From assembly GCA_003233055.1 (NCBI GenBank), contig QIKP01000005.1:1-64000 (forward strand): a stretch of DNA of 64,000 bases, given 5' to 3'. Shown one piece after another: positions 46,983 to 55,293 of this stretch. The position numbers and the translations under genes are program-made. This DNA is from Planctomycetaceae bacterium (GTDB lineage: Bacteria > Planctomycetota > Planctomycetia > Pirellulales > Lacipirellulaceae). The notes under the pieces were generated by a model. That model worked only from the letters and a program-made list of their open reading frames with translations, was not told the origin of the DNA and did no database searches. The first letter of the stretch is position 1. The number at the start of each line of letters is the position of its first letter.

Positions 46983-48119
46983 TTACGCGGCCATCGGCAC
47001 GGCCGTGCCGTAGAGCAACCCACAGCACTCCTCTGCAATCATCTCCGCGGCGTCAGGCGAGGCGAGCGATCGCATGGCCCGGGCCATCTCTCGGCGGCGC
47101 TGGTCGTCGGCGGCAAGTAGGCGAATTTCGCTGACCAAGGCCTCGGTCAACTGGTCGCCGGCTGCCCATTCATCGACCACGGTACAGGCCCCCGCTTCTT
47201 GGTAAACCAGGGCGTTAGCCATTTGGTGATTCTCGGCCGCATCGGGAAACGGCACGACCACCGCCGGGACACCTGCTAGCGCCAGTTCCGCAAGCGTTGT
47301 TCCCCCGGCGCGACAAACGACAATATCGGTTTCAGAAAGCAGCGAAGCGAGTTCATCGATGTAAGAGACGGTGAGGATCTGTGGATGATCTTCGCCATAC
47401 CGGTCTTCGGTCTCCTGGAGTTGTCCTTCGCCCGTTTGATGGACCACCCTCCAGTCAGCCAGATCGCTTCCCAACTGCGCCACCACCGCCGGCATGTGCC
47501 GGTTAAGCGTTTGCGCACCGCCAGCACCACCAAGGACCACGAGTCGCCGTTCTCGCAGCCGGTCGTCGTGGTCGGTGTTGTTCCCTTGCCGAAACTGTTG
47601 GACAAACCGGGGCCGGGCGGGAGTTCCGGTGTGATGAATCTGCGCCATGGGAGAGAGATTCGAAGCAACCTGCTCGAACCCCGTGCAAACACTCTCCACC
47701 ATTCCGGAAAGCCATTTGGTGGCCCGTCCCGCGACGGCGTTCTGCTCAAGCAATAATGTGGGAATGCCCCGGCCGACAGCGGCGCGGATCACGGCCGCGC
47801 TCGCAAATCCGCCAAGCCCGACCACGAGCGAAGTCTGTTGCTCACGCAACATCCAACCCGCTGCCATAAAGCCGACCATGTTGTCGGTGACGAACCGGAA
47901 AGCTTCGAACGGATTGTGCGGCGCAGGCTTCGCAGGCAAGGAAACGTAGTTGTAACCGGCGGCGCGAACCAAATGTCTTTCAAGAGGACGCCCTGTGCCG
48001 GCAAACATGAGGGAAACGTCGGGGATCCGAGCTTCCAGAGCTTCGGCAATGGCTAGCCCGGGATAGACGTGCCCCGGCGAGCCGCCACCGGCGATGACAA
48101 CTTGCAAAGTGCTGGACAT
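46983..48119 (-). CDS. murG: UDP-GlcNAc:lipid I N-acetylglucosaminyltransferase MurG
   Basis: MurG makes lipid II from lipid I on the inner face of the cytoplasmic membrane in peptidoglycan synthesis. The 378-residue GT-B protein has a variant of the first glycine loop (GGGSPGHVYPGLA, where most have GGTGGH). It also has VVGLGGFASA, the LEQNAVAGRATKWL segment, and the donor-binding CRAGGTTLAELALAGVPAVVVPFPDAAENHQMANA region. All catalytic landmarks are recognisable. A Mur-ligase-like gene lies upstream on the same strand beyond a 372-bp structured spacer. Confidence 0.93.
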   Translation of the reverse strand: MSSTLQVVIAGGGSPGHVYPGLAIAEALEARIPDVSLMFAGTGRPLERHLVRAAGYNYVSLPAKPAPHNPFEAFRFVTDNMVGFMAAGWMLREQQTSLVVGLGGFASAAVIRAAVGRGIPTLLLEQNAVAGRATKWLSGMVESVCTGFEQVASNLSPMAQIHHTGTPARPRFVQQFRQGNNTDHDDRLRERRLVVLGGAGGAQTLNRHMPAVVAQLGSDLADWRVVHQTGEGQLQETEDRYGEDHPQILTVSYIDELASLLSETDIVVCRAGGTTLAELALAGVPAVVVPFPDAAENHQMANALVYQEAGACTVVDEWAAGDQLTEALVSEIRLLAADDQRRREMARAMRSLASPDAAEMIAEECCGLLYGTAVPMAA

Positions 48120-48491
48120 GGCGAGGACCGGGTAAGAGGCGAGGGAGGGTAGAAGAAAGAAGAAGGGGAATCGCTACGCTTCCACCTTTCCGCTTTCCGT
48201 TGTTTCCACTGAGACGCCAGGGTGGCGGAGGTCCGCCACCCCGACGCTCAGTTCTTGTAGCTTCATCGCGAAGCGCCTGCTGTTGGCGATTGACCCAGTA
48301 ATCGCCGCTCAGCAGGGTTCGATGCTCCAACCCAGGGGAGGGTAGTTACGCAAGATCCCGCAATCCGCGCAACCGACGAAGAAGCTACAGCATGATTTGT
48401 TCGTTATTAGGTAAGTTGATCCATCCTCGGACCCCAATTGGTCCCTTCGTGGAGTCTCTTTCGTAGGGACGTCCACAACTTGATCTTTCAG
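48120..48491. other. Structured spacer between the Mur ligase and murG genes
   Basis: No gene is supported. Several nested inverted repeats lie close together. GGGTGGCGGA/TCCGCCACCC sits at 48220-48241 inside ACTGAG/CTCAGT (48208, 48252). CCTGCTG..GGCGATT / AATCGCC..CAGCAGG sits at 48276-48316. TGTAGCTTC/GAAGCTACA (48256-48264, 48381-48389) encloses the second one. Confidence 0.65.
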
Positions 48492-49961
48492 CTATGCCGC
48501 GCTCCTTGCTGGGAGGCGATCGGCTAGTTCTTTCAGTAAGTCTTTCACAAGATAAGGAACCTGAACATTTTGAGCGGCCCAATTCTCTTGCGGCGACACA
48601 CTTCCCAGACCGCAGACGACGACGATGTCGCCCTTTTGCGCACGGAGGACTGCCGCTGCGATCCCGCTAAGCTTGGCTGCAATGGTTCTCAGCACGCCTT
48701 CGTCGGTGACTTCGAGCACGGCGAGTACTTTCGCCACGGCTTGTGTTATTACGGCATCCTTGGAAAACCCGCAAGTCGAAATAACATGGTCTGCTAGCGA
48801 ACCCGATACCGAGCAGGCCTGGTCGACGACAGCAATCACTTGTCCCTCGGTGAGCGCGCGAGCGGCCGACAGCGCCCCACTCTTCGCAACCGGTGACCGG
48901 CCGCGATCGAAATAGAGGGGAACTCCGAGCCCTGTGTCGAACCGATGCATCACGCCGGGAATTTGCTTTACTTGCTCAATCCCAAGAGCAATATCGCGGA
49001 GCGGCACGCCATAGACGCGGGCAATCGAAGCAGCGGCAAGGCAGTTTTGGACATGCGCCTCGCCGACGATCGAAGTGACCACTGCGGCCGTATCGTCGTC
49101 GATGGTGAGGAAAAACATCTGCTCGTTGGTTTGCCGGTCGACGACCGTCGCCGAGACATCCGCCGGATAGTTCATTCCAAAGGTAAGCGTCGGCCCCTCG
49201 TGCTCGGAGAGTATTCTCATGGAATTTTGATCGTCAGCATTCAGCACCACCATGCCGCCTACAGTGAGCAGCTCCAGTGCCGAGGTCATTGCCTGTCGAG
49301 AATCTTGCGGAGAGCGGTTGCCGTCCGGCTGATCGCCATGCAGATTGGATAGGCAGACAACATCGAAATTGGCAGCACTTGCAACGCGAGTGCGCAGCGA
49401 TTCTTCCGAGAGCTCGACCACCGCGTGGCGGCAACCGGAAGCGAGACTTTCGTCCATGAACTCCGCGATGCCAGGAGCGGTCGTTGGCAGCACAAAACGT
49501 GACTTGCATCCGTCGATGCGAGTGTATTGGCTCGTTTGGCAACCAACCGACTTGCCGGCAACAAGAAAAATGGACTCCAGCAACTGGGCAATCGACGTCT
49601 TGCCGTAGCTGCCGGCGATCGCAATGGCGTTGAGCGAGGCCGAGGGGTGATCGAGCAGGGCGTGACAAATTTCGCTGTACGCCGCTTGGCTATTTTCCAC
49701 GACGTATTGGGTTACGCCAAAAACGGGCAGATAACGCTCGCAGACAATGGCGATCGCACCCCGCTCCACTGCTTGCCGAGCCGCATCGTCTCCCCGGCCC
49801 TCGGTATCCATTTCCACAAAAACATCCCCCGGTCGCACCTTATCACTACTGGAAGTGCAACTGGTGGCAACGATATCCCCCCCTCCAAGCAGACGAGCGG
49901 AGGGAATCGCTTCAGCAAGCGACTTGCCGTGGTTTTGAGAGGGGAGCGTGGGGAGTAACAT
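48492..49961 (-). CDS. MurE-like Mur ligase family protein, degenerate catalytic motifs
   Basis: The 489-residue protein has the three-domain Mur ligase layout: N-terminal UDP-binding-like domain (RPGDVFVEMDTEGRGDDAARQAVERGA, about 43-69), an ATPase domain with P-loop GSYGKTS (118-124), and a C-terminal Rossmann-like domain. Several MurE hallmarks are altered. EVSSH-like becomes ELSEE, the NLTRDHLDYHG region is NLHGDQPDGN, the carbamylated-Lys position appears as Met, and DYAHTPD is FDRGRSPV. A nonstandard substrate or a non-ligase role is possible. The ATG at 49961 follows AAGGAGGTC, the best ribosome-binding site in the window. It shares strand and neighbourhood with murG. Confidence 0.85.
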   Translation of the reverse strand: MLLPTLPSQNHGKSLAEAIPSARLLGGGDIVATSCTSSSDKVRPGDVFVEMDTEGRGDDAARQAVERGAIAIVCERYLPVFGVTQYVVENSQAAYSEICHALLDHPSASLNAIAIAGSYGKTSIAQLLESIFLVAGKSVGCQTSQYTRIDGCKSRFVLPTTAPGIAEFMDESLASGCRHAVVELSEESLRTRVASAANFDVVCLSNLHGDQPDGNRSPQDSRQAMTSALELLTVGGMVVLNADDQNSMRILSEHEGPTLTFGMNYPADVSATVVDRQTNEQMFFLTIDDDTAAVVTSIVGEAHVQNCLAAASIARVYGVPLRDIALGIEQVKQIPGVMHRFDTGLGVPLYFDRGRSPVAKSGALSAARALTEGQVIAVVDQACSVSGSLADHVISTCGFSKDAVITQAVAKVLAVLEVTDEGVLRTIAAKLSGIAAAVLRAQKGDIVVVCGLGSVSPQENWAAQNVQVPYLVKDLLKELADRLPARSAA

Positions 49962-50229
49962 CGGCGCGACCTCCTTGTCTTGCCGTCGAAACCGCCGACC
50001 TTGGGCGGCTGCTCGAAGCATGCTACCATCCTTGGCAGCGAGTGTCCGCAACGAGCAGGTATCTGTTTCGCAAATTTGCACACCACTGTCAAGGCGGCTT
50101 TCAAAACCACTGCCTGCCTCGACGACACGCACGCACTTGCGCACTCACGACTCGACACTCACTGGAATTTGGCCCTTGACCATCGCCCCTTATATCGACC
50201 CTTATCAAGCCAATCCGATTCAGGTACCT

Positions 50230-51039
50230 ATGCGAAATCGCCCACGCCAATCGATTCCCCGTTCCGCGATGAAACGCTCGCTAAAAGTGCTAGCGGTCGG
50301 GGACCTAGAGAATACCGAATGGAGTGAAGCACTTCAGGCGATCGACAGGGATGCAACGCTTACCCTCGCCAATAATTCTGAGCAGCAGGCTGACCTGGTG
50401 GTCGTGTTTCAAATGCGGCCAGGGAATTTTTCTGCCGATTGGGTACGAGCGGCGCGCGAGCGCTTGCCGCTCGCGGGATTCGTGACCGTCCTGGGGACTT
50501 GGTGCGAGGGGGAGCAGCGGACGGGCACCCCGCTTCCCTTCTGCGAACGAATCTACTGGTATCACTTTGAAACCTGGTGGCAAACGACGCAGAGGCAATG
50601 GCGGGCTGGTCGCCCCACTAGTTGGCAGAACCTCCATACAATGCCAATCGAAAACAGAGAGAAAACGGCCTCCGCCGCCGAGACTCCCTTCCAGGCTCCC
50701 AAGCTCGTTGCCATCGATGCCCCGGATGCCGATGCCCCGGACGCGCTCCTCGTCGCTTGCGATGCGATTGGCTATTCCGCCCTTTGGACGCCCACCTGGC
50801 GTGCCGGGCCGCTCAGCTCACCACCTTCGGCAGGTATTTGGGTCGGCGGGCAGTTGAATCAAGACGAAGAGCAACGGCTCGCCCGTTTTTGCAAGAGATT
50901 ACCAGCGGATGTTCCGCTTGTCGCGCTGCTCGACTTCCCGCGGCGCGACCGCGTGGAGCGCGCGACAGAACTCGGCGCCACGGCCGTACTCGGCAAACCA
51001 TGGCGGCTCGACGACTTGGCGACCTGCTTGAGAGGCTAA
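50230..51039 (+). CDS. Hypothetical protein with receiver-like C-terminal domain
   Basis: This 269-residue protein has no confident family. Its N-terminus (LKVLAVGDLENTEWSEALQAI) and C-terminus (VPLVALLDFPRRDRVERATELGATAVLGKPWRLDDLATCL) each resemble alternating beta/alpha response-regulator folds. The 'GATAVLGKPW' stretch recalls the conserved Lys-Pro of receiver domains. The phospho-acceptor Asp is not evident, so it may be a pseudo-receiver. The middle (about 100-170) is variable and Ala/Pro-rich. I chose the ATG at 50230; another ATG 13 codons later is possible. It is divergent from the Mur-ligase-like gene, 268 bp away. Confidence 0.65.
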   Translation: MRNRPRQSIPRSAMKRSLKVLAVGDLENTEWSEALQAIDRDATLTLANNSEQQADLVVVFQMRPGNFSADWVRAARERLPLAGFVTVLGTWCEGEQRTGTPLPFCERIYWYHFETWWQTTQRQWRAGRPTSWQNLHTMPIENREKTASAAETPFQAPKLVAIDAPDADAPDALLVACDAIGYSALWTPTWRAGPLSSPPSAGIWVGGQLNQDEEQRLARFCKRLPADVPLVALLDFPRRDRVERATELGATAVLGKPWRLDDLATCLRG

Positions 51040-51096: not shown

Positions 51097-51891
51097 TCAC
51101 TCCCAGATTGGCATATCCATTCGCAATATCTCCCGTTTCCACTCCGGCTCATGCACAGGCCAGCAGCGGAGGGGGATCGTGCTAAACTCCTCGCCGACGA
51201 TCTCTCCATAAGTCGCCAGCCCCAGGTCGTGGCATTCTCGCCAGCATTGCAATTCCTGGTCGCAGATCGGTTGAGAGCGGGTGCCGGTATTGGAGCGGCG
51301 CCAGGTGACATGGCCCTGGTCGAACAGGGTGAGAACGATCCGATCCGGCATGTCGAGCATTCGCCGGGCGATCAGTTCATGGCTGGCGGTGGTGAAAACT
51401 TTTTTGAGTTCCCTGAGGTCCCAATCGCACGCAAGGCCCTGCTCGCGAAACCATCGCCAGGGCAACAGCAATCGCCCCGCAATCGCGTTGGCGACCTGCT
51501 CGCGACTTCCGATCGGAGCGTGGTGCGGCTCGATGCCCAAGCGGTTGAAGACCCTGGCGGCGGAGAATTCGCCCAGCTCGTGCGCCACCGCAAACTGCCG
51601 GCGCTCGAAACGCTCCTCCTCGCCCAGGACGATAACCGAAGTCCCTCGCGGCAGGCCCGTTTCCCCCGCCTGGGCTACTCCAGACTGGGCTACTGAAGTC
51701 GGTTCGCCGGCGAGACGCGCGAATTGGGCACGGACAGGCAACGCATCGTTTTCGGTGACGAGAAGACCGAGCCGCATCGCAAACAAGAACGCATCGACGG
51801 GCGGATCAGCGATGCCCGCCTCCCAGAGCAATTCCTCGGCGGTCGCTTCGAAGGCGTCGGCCCATTCTTCATAAGGGATGTCGGCAAGCAT
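51097..51891 (-). CDS. ImmA/IrrE-like (M78) putative metallopeptidase
   Basis: The 264-residue protein contains the IrrE/ImmA pattern RRQFAVAHELGEF followed by REQVANAIAGRLLLP, equivalent to the family's HExxH helix and 'ExxANxFAxxLLMP' segment. The zinc helix reads HELGE (104-108), so the third ligand of HExxH is Glu instead of His; Glu131 could still be a ligand. ImmA/IrrE proteases cleave phage-type repressors or DdrO in stress responses. No helix-turn-helix repressor gene adjoins it. The C-terminal 90 residues have a Cys/Trp-rich segment (CDQELQCWRECHDLG). The ATG at 51891 is chosen over upstream frame. Confidence 0.75.
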   Translation of the reverse strand: MLADIPYEEWADAFEATAEELLWEAGIADPPVDAFLFAMRLGLLVTENDALPVRAQFARLAGEPTSVAQSGVAQAGETGLPRGTSVIVLGEEERFERRQFAVAHELGEFSAARVFNRLGIEPHHAPIGSREQVANAIAGRLLLPWRWFREQGLACDWDLRELKKVFTTASHELIARRMLDMPDRIVLTLFDQGHVTWRRSNTGTRSQPICDQELQCWRECHDLGLATYGEIVGEEFSTIPLRCWPVHEPEWKREILRMDMPIWE

Positions 51892-52110
51892 GGTTCGAGC
51901 CTTTCGTGGCAAGTGACCGAATAGTAAACAGGCGTACACTATACCGAGGACCGGACGGATTGCAACCGAATTGCCGAGAAAAACCGTAACTATTTTGCCA
52001 CGCGAGGACGCCAACGAGGGGACAACACCCCTCGTTTCTTGTGCCTTTGCCTGCGTTGGCCGCTTCGCGGTCCCTCGCCACAAGTTGCCGCATCGACTAC
52101 GCTAGAGGCC

Positions 52111-53511
52111 ATGCAACCACTCCCCATCATCGCCAACCAGCCGTCGGCAGCAGGCTCGCCTTCTTCCACCCCAACCGAGACCAAGGGGCGGTATGCGTTT
52201 GTGAGTCTTGGGTGCCCGAAGAACCTCGTCGACAGCGAACGGATGCTGGGGCTCTTGCAGTTGGATGGGTACGAGCTGGTCCCGTCGCCCGAAGGGGCCG
52301 ACTTTGCCATCGTCAACACGTGCGGGTTCATCGAGTCGGCCCGCAACGAATCGTTTGCGGCGATCGACGAGATGCTCGAACTTAAAAAACGAGGCGACCT
52401 GCGCGGCCTGATTGTCAGCGGCTGCCTCGCCGAACGGCAGAAGGAGCAACTGCTGGTCGATCGTCCCGGCATCGACCACCTGGTCGGTGTCTTTGGGCGG
52501 GAGGAAGTCACCAAGGTCGCCGACCGGCTGATTGGTGGGCTCGATGAACAACGGCTCGTCTTCAAGCCCGCACCCGTCCGGGCACTTGCCGACACCGGGC
52601 GACTGCGCGTCACGCCGCGACATTTCGCTTATCTAAAAATCTCCGAAGGGTGCGACCGGCTTTGCACGTTTTGCGCGATCCCCAAGATGCGTGGCAAGCA
52701 TGCGACAAAACCGATCGAAGATGTCCTGACCGAAGCGCGCGAGCTAGCGGCCGATGGTGTCAAGGAGTTGGTGATCGTCGCCCAAGACACCACCTACTAT
52801 GGCAAAGACCTGTACGGCGAGCCTCGGCTCGTCGAACTGCTTCGTGAGCTAGAACAAGTCGAGGGGATCAAGTGGATTCGGCTGATGTATCTTTACCCAA
52901 TGTACTTCACCGACGAATTGATCGACGTGGTTGCCAGCTCCGAAAAAATCCTCCCCTACCTCGACATGCCTCTGCAGCATATCAATGACCGAATGCTCAA
53001 ACGGATGCAGCGGCGGGTGAATCGCCAGGAGACCGAGGCGTTGCTTGGCAAACTTCGCAGCCGAATCGATAACCTGACACTGCGGACCACCATGATTACC
53101 GGTTTCCCAGGCGAGACCGACCAAGAATTCACCGAGTTGGCCGAATTCATAGCGGAGCAGCGATTTGAGCGGCTCGGCGTGTTTACGTATTCGCTCGAGC
53201 CCGACACACCCGCCGCCCGCTTACCGAATCACGTCGACGAGGCGACCATGCAGGCCCGGCATGACGAATTGATGGCCCTGCAACAATCGATTGCTTTTGA
53301 GTTTGCAGAATCGCAGATTGGTACCCAGCAAGACATCCTCATCGACCGACCGGTGCCCGGCGAAGAAAACGCCTGGATTGGCCGAACCAAATTCGACGCA
53401 CCCGATGTCGATTGCGTAGCGTACGTCACAGGCGACCAGATCGCGACAGGACAAATCGTCCAAGGCGAAGTCGTCGCCCGAAACGATTACGATTTAGTAG
53501 CGGCCTGCTAG
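52111..53511 (+). CDS. rimO: Ribosomal protein S12 methylthiotransferase RimO
   Basis: RimO is a radical-SAM enzyme that adds a methylthio group to an aspartate of ribosomal protein S12. The 466-residue protein has the UPF0004 domain with its cluster cysteines ([22 protein letters not shown]), the radical-SAM motif CDRLCTFC, the family [15 protein letters not shown] stretch, and a C-terminal TRAM domain. It groups with RimO rather than MiaB by the [12 protein letters not shown] opening. The ATG at 52111 follows AGAGG. The first 25 residues are a variable leader. It is divergent from the IrrE-like gene. Confidence 0.96.
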
Positions 53512-53569
53512 ACGGCGATCACTTCTTCGAGACTTGGCGACTTTTCATCCTTGGGAACCGGACAGCGCT

Positions 53570-54160
53570 ATGAGGACTGAACCTACCGCGCCCGCACCAA
53601 CTGTCTGGAACATCCCCAACCAACTTTCCGCCTCGCGAATCGTACTAGCCCTTGCGTGCTTTCTAACGATCGCGTTGGGCTGGTATTTCGTGAGTCTCGT
53701 ACTCTTCCTGCTCGCAGCATTGACGGACTGGCTCGATGGCTACTGGGCTCGCAAATTCGGAATGATTACGCAGCTTGGCCGTATTCTTGATCCCTTTGCC
53801 GATAAGGTCATCATTTGCGGCACCTTTATCATGCTTGCCGGGATCGAAGGCTCGCAAATCTTCCGATGGATGGCCGTGCTCGTGACGGGGCGCGAGTTGT
53901 TGGTCACCGCCCTTCGCGGATTGTGCGAAGGACGCAACATCGATTTTTCGGCCAAGTGGGCGGGAAAAGTAAAGATGGTGTTTCAATGCCTGGCAGTAGC
54001 GCTGAGCCTTTGGGGACTCAGTGCGTGGAGCGGAGAAAATACGCCTGGCTTCAAGAGTCTTCTCATCGCAAGCATCTGGTTGTCCCTCGCCGCGACCCTT
54101 TACAGCGGATGGGGATACATTCGGCTCGCCTCCGAAATGATGACGGAGAAATCGACCTAG
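53570..54160 (+). CDS. pgsA: CDP-diacylglycerol-glycerol-3-phosphate 3-phosphatidyltransferase
   Basis: PgsA makes phosphatidylglycerol phosphate, the precursor of phosphatidylglycerol and cardiolipin. The 196-residue membrane protein has NIPNQLSASRIVLA at its N-terminus and the CDP-alcohol phosphotransferase signature DG-x2-AR-x8-G-x3-D-x3-D in the stretch beginning DWLDGYWARKFG and ending LDPFADK. Four to five hydrophobic helices are visible. The ATG at 53570 starts shortly before the conserved block; a TTG at 53534 would add 12 residues. It follows rimO after 58 bp on the same strand. Confidence 0.94.
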   Translation: MRTEPTAPAPTVWNIPNQLSASRIVLALACFLTIALGWYFVSLVLFLLAALTDWLDGYWARKFGMITQLGRILDPFADKVIICGTFIMLAGIEGSQIFRWMAVLVTGRELLVTALRGLCEGRNIDFSAKWAGKVKMVFQCLAVALSLWGLSAWSGENTPGFKSLLIASIWLSLAATLYSGWGYIRLASEMMTEKST

Positions 54161-54267
54161 TGCGAGCCGCACACGCATGTTCCGGTCACGGCGCTGCTAT
54201 TTCAGCGTCAAACGATTGCCTTAGCGGAACATCCGAGTGATCACTGCAATCTGGTGTGCAAGCTGCC

Positions 54268-55293
54268 ATGTTGGATCCCGAACTTAGCTCTCGAATGGCC
54301 CTGATCGTCGCCATCGGATTGGTTGCGAGCCTCGTCGCCTGGGGATGGCTCGCAAGAAAGTGGGCCCAATCGGGAACCGTGCTGGAGTTGGAACCTCGGC
54401 AGCCCGTCCCCTGGATGCTTGGCGGCACGTTGCCAGCGATTCTCATGACGTTCGCCGCGTTCTTCATGGCCCTAGCTCCCCCAGGGCAACCGGCGAGCCC
54501 TACCACCTCGGCGGACGATTTCACCAGTCGTATTTTCTCGCTTTGTGTGACCAATCTGTTCTTTGCGGTCGTGATTGTTGCAGTGCTGGTGATGCTGCTG
54601 GGGGCGACTTGGCGCGACCTTGGCTGGCCAGTTTCGATGCGTCAACTCCTGGGGGACATAGGCATGGGGATCGGCTTGGCTTCGGCAAGCTTGATTCCCA
54701 TTTACCTCATCCAGGCAGCCGCAGCCCATCTGCTCGGAATTCCCCCCACCCATCCTCTGCTCGAAAGCATGCAGGAAAACAGGGAGCCGATGGTCTTCCT
54801 CGCCGCGATACTGGCGGCCGTTGTCGTCGCTCCGATTTTGGAAGAGCTACTCTTCCGCTTGCTCTTGCAAGGGGGATTGGAACGATGGGAAGACCAAATT
54901 CTCGGACTTGGCCCCCACCAACCCCAGCAAGAGGAGACGTCGCCGCTCCCCATGGAAAGTGATCGGTCTCCCGAACGATGGATCGGCGCGGCAGACGATT
55001 CGTTGCACGAGGTTTCTCTGCCCGCTGGTGCACATTTCCAAGCACCTGCCACCGTCGGTGCGGTACTGGGCCTTCGGCATGGTTGGGCACCGATCCTTGC
55101 TTCTTCGTTCCTGTTCGCGCTGGCGCACTTGGGACATGGGCCAAGCCCGATCTCGCTTTTCGTCTTCGCCCTCTTTCTTGGCTACGCTTATCAGCGGACG
55201 CATCGCATTGTCCCCTCCATCGTCGCCCACCTCATGCTGAATCTCTACTCCATGACGACCATGATTCTTCTTCTCTTGCCCAAGTCCGGCTGA
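54268..55293 (+). CDS. CPBP family intramembrane metalloprotease (CAAX protease-like)
   Basis: The 341-residue membrane protein has the CPBP/Abi motifs: EELLFR (motif 1, EExxxR), FALAHLGHG (motif 2, FxxxH) and a final IVAHLMLN (motif 3, HxxxN). About eight hydrophobic helices are visible. The membrane-embedded site is complete, so protease activity is plausible. Between motifs 1 and 2 is a polar insertion of about 55 residues (HQPQQEETSPLPMESDRS-like), longer than usual. The ATG at 54268 is chosen over a GTG four codons upstream. Substrate unknown. Confidence 0.88.
   Translation: MLDPELSSRMALIVAIGLVASLVAWGWLARKWAQSGTVLELEPRQPVPWMLGGTLPAILMTFAAFFMALAPPGQPASPTTSADDFTSRIFSLCVTNLFFAVVIVAVLVMLLGATWRDLGWPVSMRQLLGDIGMGIGLASASLIPIYLIQAAAAHLLGIPPTHPLLESMQENREPMVFLAAILAAVVVAPILEELLFRLLLQGGLERWEDQILGLGPHQPQQEETSPLPMESDRSPERWIGAADDSLHEVSLPAGAHFQAPATVGAVLGLRHGWAPILASSFLFALAHLGHGPSPISLFVFALFLGYAYQRTHRIVPSIVAHLMLNLYSMTTMILLLLPKSG

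Follow-up and report, generated by a model that had tools for sequence, protein, structure and literature searches.

The 489-residue MurE-like protein encoded in the window (the whole 64,000-nucleotide stretch of DNA analysed here) is the native murE product of an old dcw locus and has been vertically inherited. Its descent, the loss of the surrounding pathway at the level of genes, the loss of its catalytic motifs, the lack of any other MurE, purifying selection and the predicted fold are all computed results and are set out below. An earlier note on this DNA, made from the sequence alone, had suggested either a ligase with a different substrate or a regulatory pseudo-ligase; of these, ‘pseudo-ligase’ fits best. 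Our best explanation, to which we would give about an even chance, is that the protein is a MurE-derived pseudo-ligase: a folded protein, perhaps able to bind nucleotides, that acts as a scaffold for, or a regulatory partner of, the MurG-like protein encoded next to it.

Locus and descent of the MurE-like protein

Alignment, profile searches and the map of open reading frames agree on a Mur-ligase-fold protein with lost catalytic motifs beside murG, as the earlier note had described (Table 1). The Pfam model Mur_ligase_M matched the product with an E-value of 4e-21, with a sub-threshold match for the C-terminal domain, and the top NCBIfam models were those of MurE, although at less than half of their curated cut-offs (PRK00139.1-4, 156 against 373 bits; TIGR01085, 126 against 257 bits). 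The strong ribosome-binding site that had been remarked upon was also found: AAGGAGGT, 7-8 nt 5' of the murE-like ATG, is the top Shine–Dalgarno match among the window's ATG-initiated open reading frames with 100 codons or more, and a comparable region lies upstream of the gene in two congeners. A promoter scan around the locus gave no signal above chance.

Table 1. Features of the murE-like locus (positions in the window).
Feature	Position	Strand	Basis
MurG-like glycosyltransferase (GT28), retained partner gene	46983..48119	-	profile
Gap between the murE-like and murG-like genes, 372 bp; site of murF and mraY in peptidoglycan-making relatives	48120..48491		synteny
Putative MurE-derived pseudo-ligase, 489 aa	48492..49961	-	ORF, profiles, alignment, tree, fold model
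Asp352, conserved Asp of the former DYAHTPD (now DRGRSPV)	48906..48908	-	alignment
Met225 at the carbamylated-Lys column (E. coli Lys224); catalytic Lys gone	49287..49289	-	alignment
Glu183 (Mg ligand, from the former EVSSH motif); no variation in alignments A1 and A2	49413..49415	-	
P-loop GSYGKTS, aa 117-123, GxxGK intact	49593..49613	-	alignment
Protein without Pfam match, divergent murE neighbour in relatives too; synteny marker	49948..51039	+	
Shine–Dalgarno AAGGAGG, 8 nt upstream of the murE-like ATG	49970..49976	-	sequence
IrrE/M78-type peptidase, synteny marker	51097..52083	-	
RimO-type radical-SAM protein, synteny marker	52039..53511	+	
PgsA-type CDP-alcohol phosphatidyltransferase, synteny marker	53534..54160	+	named from sequence
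CAAX-protease-like membrane protein, synteny marker	54256..55293	+	named from sequence

In a relative that carries a PBP (G057), the gene order is PgsA-RimO-peptidase-receiver-murE-murF-mraY-murG, and the window has the same flank and the same order minus murF and mraY; a tblastn search of the 372-bp gap for remnants of these two genes gave chance-level matches only. The IrrE/M78-type peptidase is conserved in the murE-flanking block across Pirellulales. The MurE-like and MurG-like genes are adjacent on the same strand at 30 of 35 Lacipirellulaceae loci, at four of the remaining five the contig stops no more than about 2 kb from murE, and in the fifth (G017) MurG lies on a separate contig. The phylogeny of Mur ligases with Pirellulales genomes, which had been proposed as a check, was run, and the window protein grouped with its own genus (100/100); this clade belongs to a Lacipirellulaceae group of 34 members (99/99), itself nested in Pirellulales MurE and apart from MurF and FolC. 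The protein thus branches with MurE and occupies the murE locus, and because synteny and phylogeny coincide we identify it as the native MurE, of the MurE lineage by descent. The same two lines of evidence rule out a paralogue that arose by duplication, so that the label ‘paralogue’ in the earlier note cannot be kept: the gene lies at the ancestral murE position, its product branches inside Pirellulales MurE and no other MurE was found in the genome.

A stand-alone C-terminal domain of MurF, a conserved remnant in an open reading frame of about 170-280 residues, lies between MurE and MurG at 14 of the 35 family loci (L067, L069, L073, L078, L080, L084, L085, L087, L088, L090, L091 and L116-L118), the window not being among them. 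G017 (locus L077) is transitional, with a MurE above the MurE cut-offs, a MurF minus its central domain and a true Ddl, the one Ddl above cut-off in a Lacipirellulaceae genome; profile searches of G017 found no PBP, true MurA or SEDS protein.

Motifs, fold and selection

Motifs were compared in an alignment that also contained MurE proteins from E. coli and from other members of the Pirellulales. The P-loop, the carbamylated lysine and DNPR have the roles described in PMC3829189; the motif positions of the MurE and MurG of E. coli, which served as alignment rulers, concur with that source and with PDB alignments. The earlier note was correct both in reading the P-loop as intact (GTNGKTT is now GSYGKTS, in which the Walker pattern GxxGK(T/S) is preserved) and in listing SSH, DHLDYHG, the carbamylated lysine and DYAHTPD as altered, each of these changes being seen in the alignment. 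EVSSHG has become ELSEES, with the Glu preserved and SSH replaced by SEE, and SRDHLDYHG has become HGDQPDGNR (DHL to DQP), so that both the SSH and the DHL elements of the UDP-MurNAc-dipeptide and acyl-phosphate motifs are gone. The carbamylated Lys of the Mg-ATP site is now a methionine, GKGHE reads GLGSV, and GGDRDKGKRP is missing together with DNPR, the meso-DAP-binding motif. The TT pair itself and the NADD motif are preserved. The losses are common to all four congeners, and in Aeoliella Val replaces the Arg of GRME.

The same erosion is seen across the family when the E. coli residue is counted in 35 Lacipirellulaceae and in eight wall-making or near-complete genomes. All eight of the latter have each residue, whereas Lys224 is present in only six of the 35 Lacipirellulaceae, the His of SSH in one, the His of DHL in 11, the His of DYAH in four and the Arg of DNPR in none; the P-loop Lys and the Mg-binding Glu183, in contrast, are present in 31 each, and the Asp of DYAH in all 35. 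In genus g8 (the f and g labels of families and genera are internal to this analysis) the P-loop Lys is gone in all four species and the murE-like gene is still kept. Among the columns newly fixed in the family we found no shared set of new residues that would hint at a new substrate, the changes being mostly conservative ones in the core; a Trp stands at the uracil-site Ser in some genera. The sites for UDP-MurNAc-dipeptide, for the second metal (carbamylated Lys and DHL His) and for diaminopimelate have been lost from the MurE-like protein, and because of these losses MurE ligase function is not expected. Judged from its sequence, this MurE copy is probably catalytically dead, and complementation of a murE mutant by the window protein, which the earlier note had named as part of what would refute it, is not expected.

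Structural modelling, also proposed by the earlier note, was run at the level of the fold and gave a confident AlphaFold2 model of a three-domain Mur ligase (mean pLDDT 86). In structure comparison the model came equally close to its two leading matches, PAP11 of plants (Z 35.3) and MurE of bacteria (Z 35.1, the M. tuberculosis enzyme over 437 residues). Pairwise dN/dS values for the MurE-like protein were mostly 0.05-0.26, with one pair at 0.40 and the worst-eroded genera included, many of the values being rough because dS is near saturation in many pairs. The frames are almost full-length in most family genomes, and a detectable MurE copy is missing from two of 60 relatives. Taken together, the near-full-length frames, the dN/dS values and the confident model indicate that selection acts on a folded protein. 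The C-terminal domain of MurE is 60% identical between wall-making families against 33% between Lacipirellulaceae genera, whereas for the two halves of MurG the corresponding identities are 48 against 49% and 46 against 45%.

The MurG-like protein scores 245 bits against the TIGR01133 cut-off of 250 bits, and in Aeoliella it retains the GH of its N-terminal loop as well as the donor motifs TLAEL and HQ. In several genera with strongly eroded MurE, the GGH loop of MurG is gone and the active-site Ser/Cys of MurB is replaced. MurB is followed by an FtsQ-like protein at all 20 family loci that were read. One MurB above the curated cut-off, in a MurA-less genome (G000:C4:32408-33229; L165:8400-9368), is likewise followed by an FtsQ-like protein.

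Peptidoglycan genes in the genome and its relatives

The genome from which the window comes is Aeoliella-like (family Lacipirellulaceae, order Pirellulales), and its assembly of 2.78 Mb in 79 contigs is 90% complete. It encodes two Mur_ligase_M proteins, the window protein and FolC. A check for a second intact murE had been proposed, with a genome lacking one as the first half of the refuting outcome; no second murE was found in the rest of the assembly, and the bona fide MurE that had been expected elsewhere gives way to FolC as the sole other protein of this kind. Profile searches of the same genome found no MurA, MurC, MurD, MurF, MraY, PBP or SEDS protein. These absences come from searches with positive controls, and although many of the assemblies are drafts, the single-contig genomes of the family are concordant.

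The comparison set consisted of 60 relatives, including 36 other Lacipirellulaceae genomes, and in the latter, single-contig assemblies included, FtsW/RodA, true MurA and true MraY were absent and no genome had the full set of Mur ligases. Strong PBP transpeptidase matches occurred in seven of the 60 relatives, none of them Lacipirellulaceae, and weak ones in five more, four of which belong to the Lacipirellulaceae genus g3 (25-32 bits). FtsW/RodA was present in eight of the 60, again with no Lacipirellulaceae among them, and MurA and MraY were above cut-off in seven each. Lacipirellulaceae genomes have at most one MurA-profile match of 50-90 bits, which is of AroA grade, and wall-makers carry the same weak match beside their true MurA; the weak MraY matches of the family lie in long frames and were read as WecA-type enzymes. 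Extra Mur-ligase matches in the relatives, MurD-like ones included, resembled PgsB, CphA or FolC in the cases read, as judged by motif and by length or sequence, with MurD found only in the wall-maker G056 among those read. Two Aeoliella congeners (L185, L186) have relatives of the PgsB-like poly-gamma-glutamate synthase, as judged by motif.

The proteins lost by the family are therefore MurA, MurC, MurD, the catalytic part of MurF, MraY, FtsW/RodA and those giving strong PBP matches, and the dcw and wall proteins retained are the MurE-like and MurG-like proteins, MurB and the FtsQ-like protein, with MurB above cut-off in 56 of the 60 genomes and MurG present in most Lacipirellulaceae. On this gene content, the whole of the Lacipirellulaceae appears to have lost the peptidoglycan-making genes. 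At the level of genes, this family thus contradicts the statement of the earlier note that planctomycetes make peptidoglycan, FtsW/RodA, true MurA, MraY, MurC/D/F and strong PBP matches all being missing; for some other planctomycetes there is chemical evidence of peptidoglycan (PMC5147048, PMC4432640), and those reports and the gene content need to be reconciled.

Among 199 genomes of the class, PBPs were found in 64, and 196 had a match to the MurE profile, although many of the lowest-scoring matches are at the level of FolC; because of this difference, loss of wall genes with MurE kept is, judged from profile matches, a repeated pattern in the class. In family f21 PBPs are mostly missing and a MurE of intermediate score is often kept, in family f23 there are no PBPs bar one weak match and MurE is apparently mostly lost, and other PBP-less Pirellulales families have a murE-murB-ftsQ block without MurG (L096, L099, L102, L114). 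That murB and murE outlast the other genes is already known from PMC10632474, which, in the section concerned, describes murB as ‘very conserved’ and murE as ‘semi-conserved’ in Planctomycetia, with losses among the other genes, and both as non-essential in a transposon study of Planctopirus limnophila; similarly, Isosphaeraceae are reported to have ‘several but not all’ of the genes, including murB and murE (PMC5352709). The retention of murE in Planctomycetia is common to that section and to our results, whereas active-site erosion, co-retention of MurG, MurF domain remnants and synteny do not feature in it.

Possible roles and known counterparts

In the explanation that we favour, the murE product would have been kept at its ancestral dcw locus after the rest of the peptidoglycan pathway disappeared, with the three-domain fold retained and, in most of the family although not in all of it, the P-loop and ATP-contact residues as well. 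The residual set of MurE-like, MurG-like, MurB and FtsQ-like proteins, joined in several genera by the free C-terminal domain of MurF, may then act in budding or in the growth of the envelope, and not in making a wall. We infer in this way that catalysis is dead in vivo, that MurG is a partner and that the role lies in the envelope or in division. That the four proteins form a largely non-enzymatic complex for envelope growth or budding in peptidoglycan-less planctomycetes is a more tentative suggestion, possible but doubtful. Several points complicate the favoured explanation. Most genera have a conserved P-loop and conserved ATP contacts; this is compatible with residual nucleotide-dependent activity, and a nucleotide-dependent role is possible there, but g8 keeps the gene without the P-loop Lys. 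MurG is under the same constraint as in wall-makers, so that it might still act as a glycosyltransferase, with the MurE-like protein as an enzyme that modifies a substrate. A carbamylated lysine is, moreover, dispensable in some Mur ligases, MurC being without it. In addition, partnership with MurG would not explain retention everywhere, because other PBP-less families keep MurE without MurG.

A ligase with a different substrate, the other suggestion of the earlier note, is disfavoured by the erosion of the substrate, second-metal and amino-acid sites and, in one genus, of the P-loop too. The conserved P-loop, Glu183, NADD and Asp352 would suit an enzyme that joins a new acid to a new amine at the expense of ATP, but the uracil-site, UDP-MurNAc, second-metal and amino-acid motifs have been lost with no common replacement set, and g8 still has the gene, making such a repurposing unlikely. 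On the same reading, with an almost intact MurB and a normally constrained MurG, the three proteins would form a short non-peptidoglycan pathway to some other lipid- or nucleotide-linked sugar, with which the loss of the MurB active-site Ser/Cys in several genera does not sit well. Conservation of the main ATP-contact residues in 31-35 of the 35 family members is what would be expected of an ATP-binding regulator that senses the level of a nucleotide or UDP-sugar and controls the MurG-like protein or another target without catalysis. Yet sensing is not the common function in g8, because the P-loop is lost there, and the GRME Arg is Val in Aeoliella, so that we regard this reading as quite improbable.

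Slow decay of a functionless gene, its loss still under way, would account for the graded loss of motifs across genera, the fast-evolving C-terminal domain and the two relatives with no detectable copy; it is very unlikely in view of the low dN/dS values, the almost full-length frames and the preserved gene order and Shine–Dalgarno sequence. Finally, peptidoglycan might be made with highly diverged enzymes, the window protein being a working MurE. In describing a new Aeoliella species, a 2026 paper states generally that planctomycetal walls have peptidoglycan (PMC13315336), and the chemical evidence from some other planctomycetes (PMC4432640, PMC5147048) points the same way, but SEDS, MurA, MraY, MurC/D/F and strong PBPs went undetected where seven or eight relatives of the same order were clearly positive for each, and the catalytic motifs are lost; we consider this reading scarcely credible.

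Returning to the pseudo-ligase, three known systems are instructive. The window protein has the orthologous locus, fold, P-loop, Mg-binding Glu and NADD of the DAP-adding MurE of wall-making Pirellulales, but lacks its carbamylated Lys, SSH, DHL, DYAH, GGDRD, DNPR and GKGHE, falls far below the MurE cut-offs and has no surrounding pathway. The top PDB match by sequence (5e-28), and by fold in a tie with MurE, is PAP11 of the plastid RNA polymerase. Angiosperms have few Mur genes left, MurE and MurG among them, and in plants, whose Mur genes have mostly disappeared, MurE turned into a subunit of the polymerase, PAP11, whose retention of catalysis is debated (PMC12681378). PAP11, too, has been kept where most wall genes disappeared, and it has changed in several of the same columns (SSH to SPQ, DHL to EDS, Lys224 to Glu and YAH to HAN). 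It differs in its independent origin, in keeping GTNGKTT and, in most plants, DNPR, and in a plant-specific extension, PAP11 chains matching from residue ~230-252 of ~768, whereas the window protein consists of 489 residues of ligase core without an extension of this type. The third system, from Bordetella, provides a precedent for a scaffold: MurE-MurF binds MurG with a sub-micromolar KD (PMC6420597), which makes a partnership of MurE and MurG plausible, although there the enzymes are catalytically active and the bacterium makes a wall. Our best reading, by analogy with PAP11, is that the window protein may be a structural partner of MurG.

These results bear on whether all planctomycetes have peptidoglycan and on how division works without FtsZ. 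The literature still assigns peptidoglycan to planctomycetal walls, the Aeoliella description included (PMC13315336), whereas in this family the gene content speaks against it and suggests that Lacipirellulaceae bud without a peptidoglycan wall. If this is confirmed, the cultured Aeoliella and Adhaeretor would be free-living bacteria without such a wall and would allow what became of each Mur enzyme to be tested. The analysis also suggests that old wall enzymes can persist as structural proteins, and the fact that several of the same MurE columns have eroded independently in plants and in planctomycetes would suggest a tendency of MurE to become structural. If the residual dcw proteins do form a largely non-enzymatic complex, this would be a bacterial counterpart of the PAP11 case in plants, in which a wall-making machine outlives its product as a scaffold.
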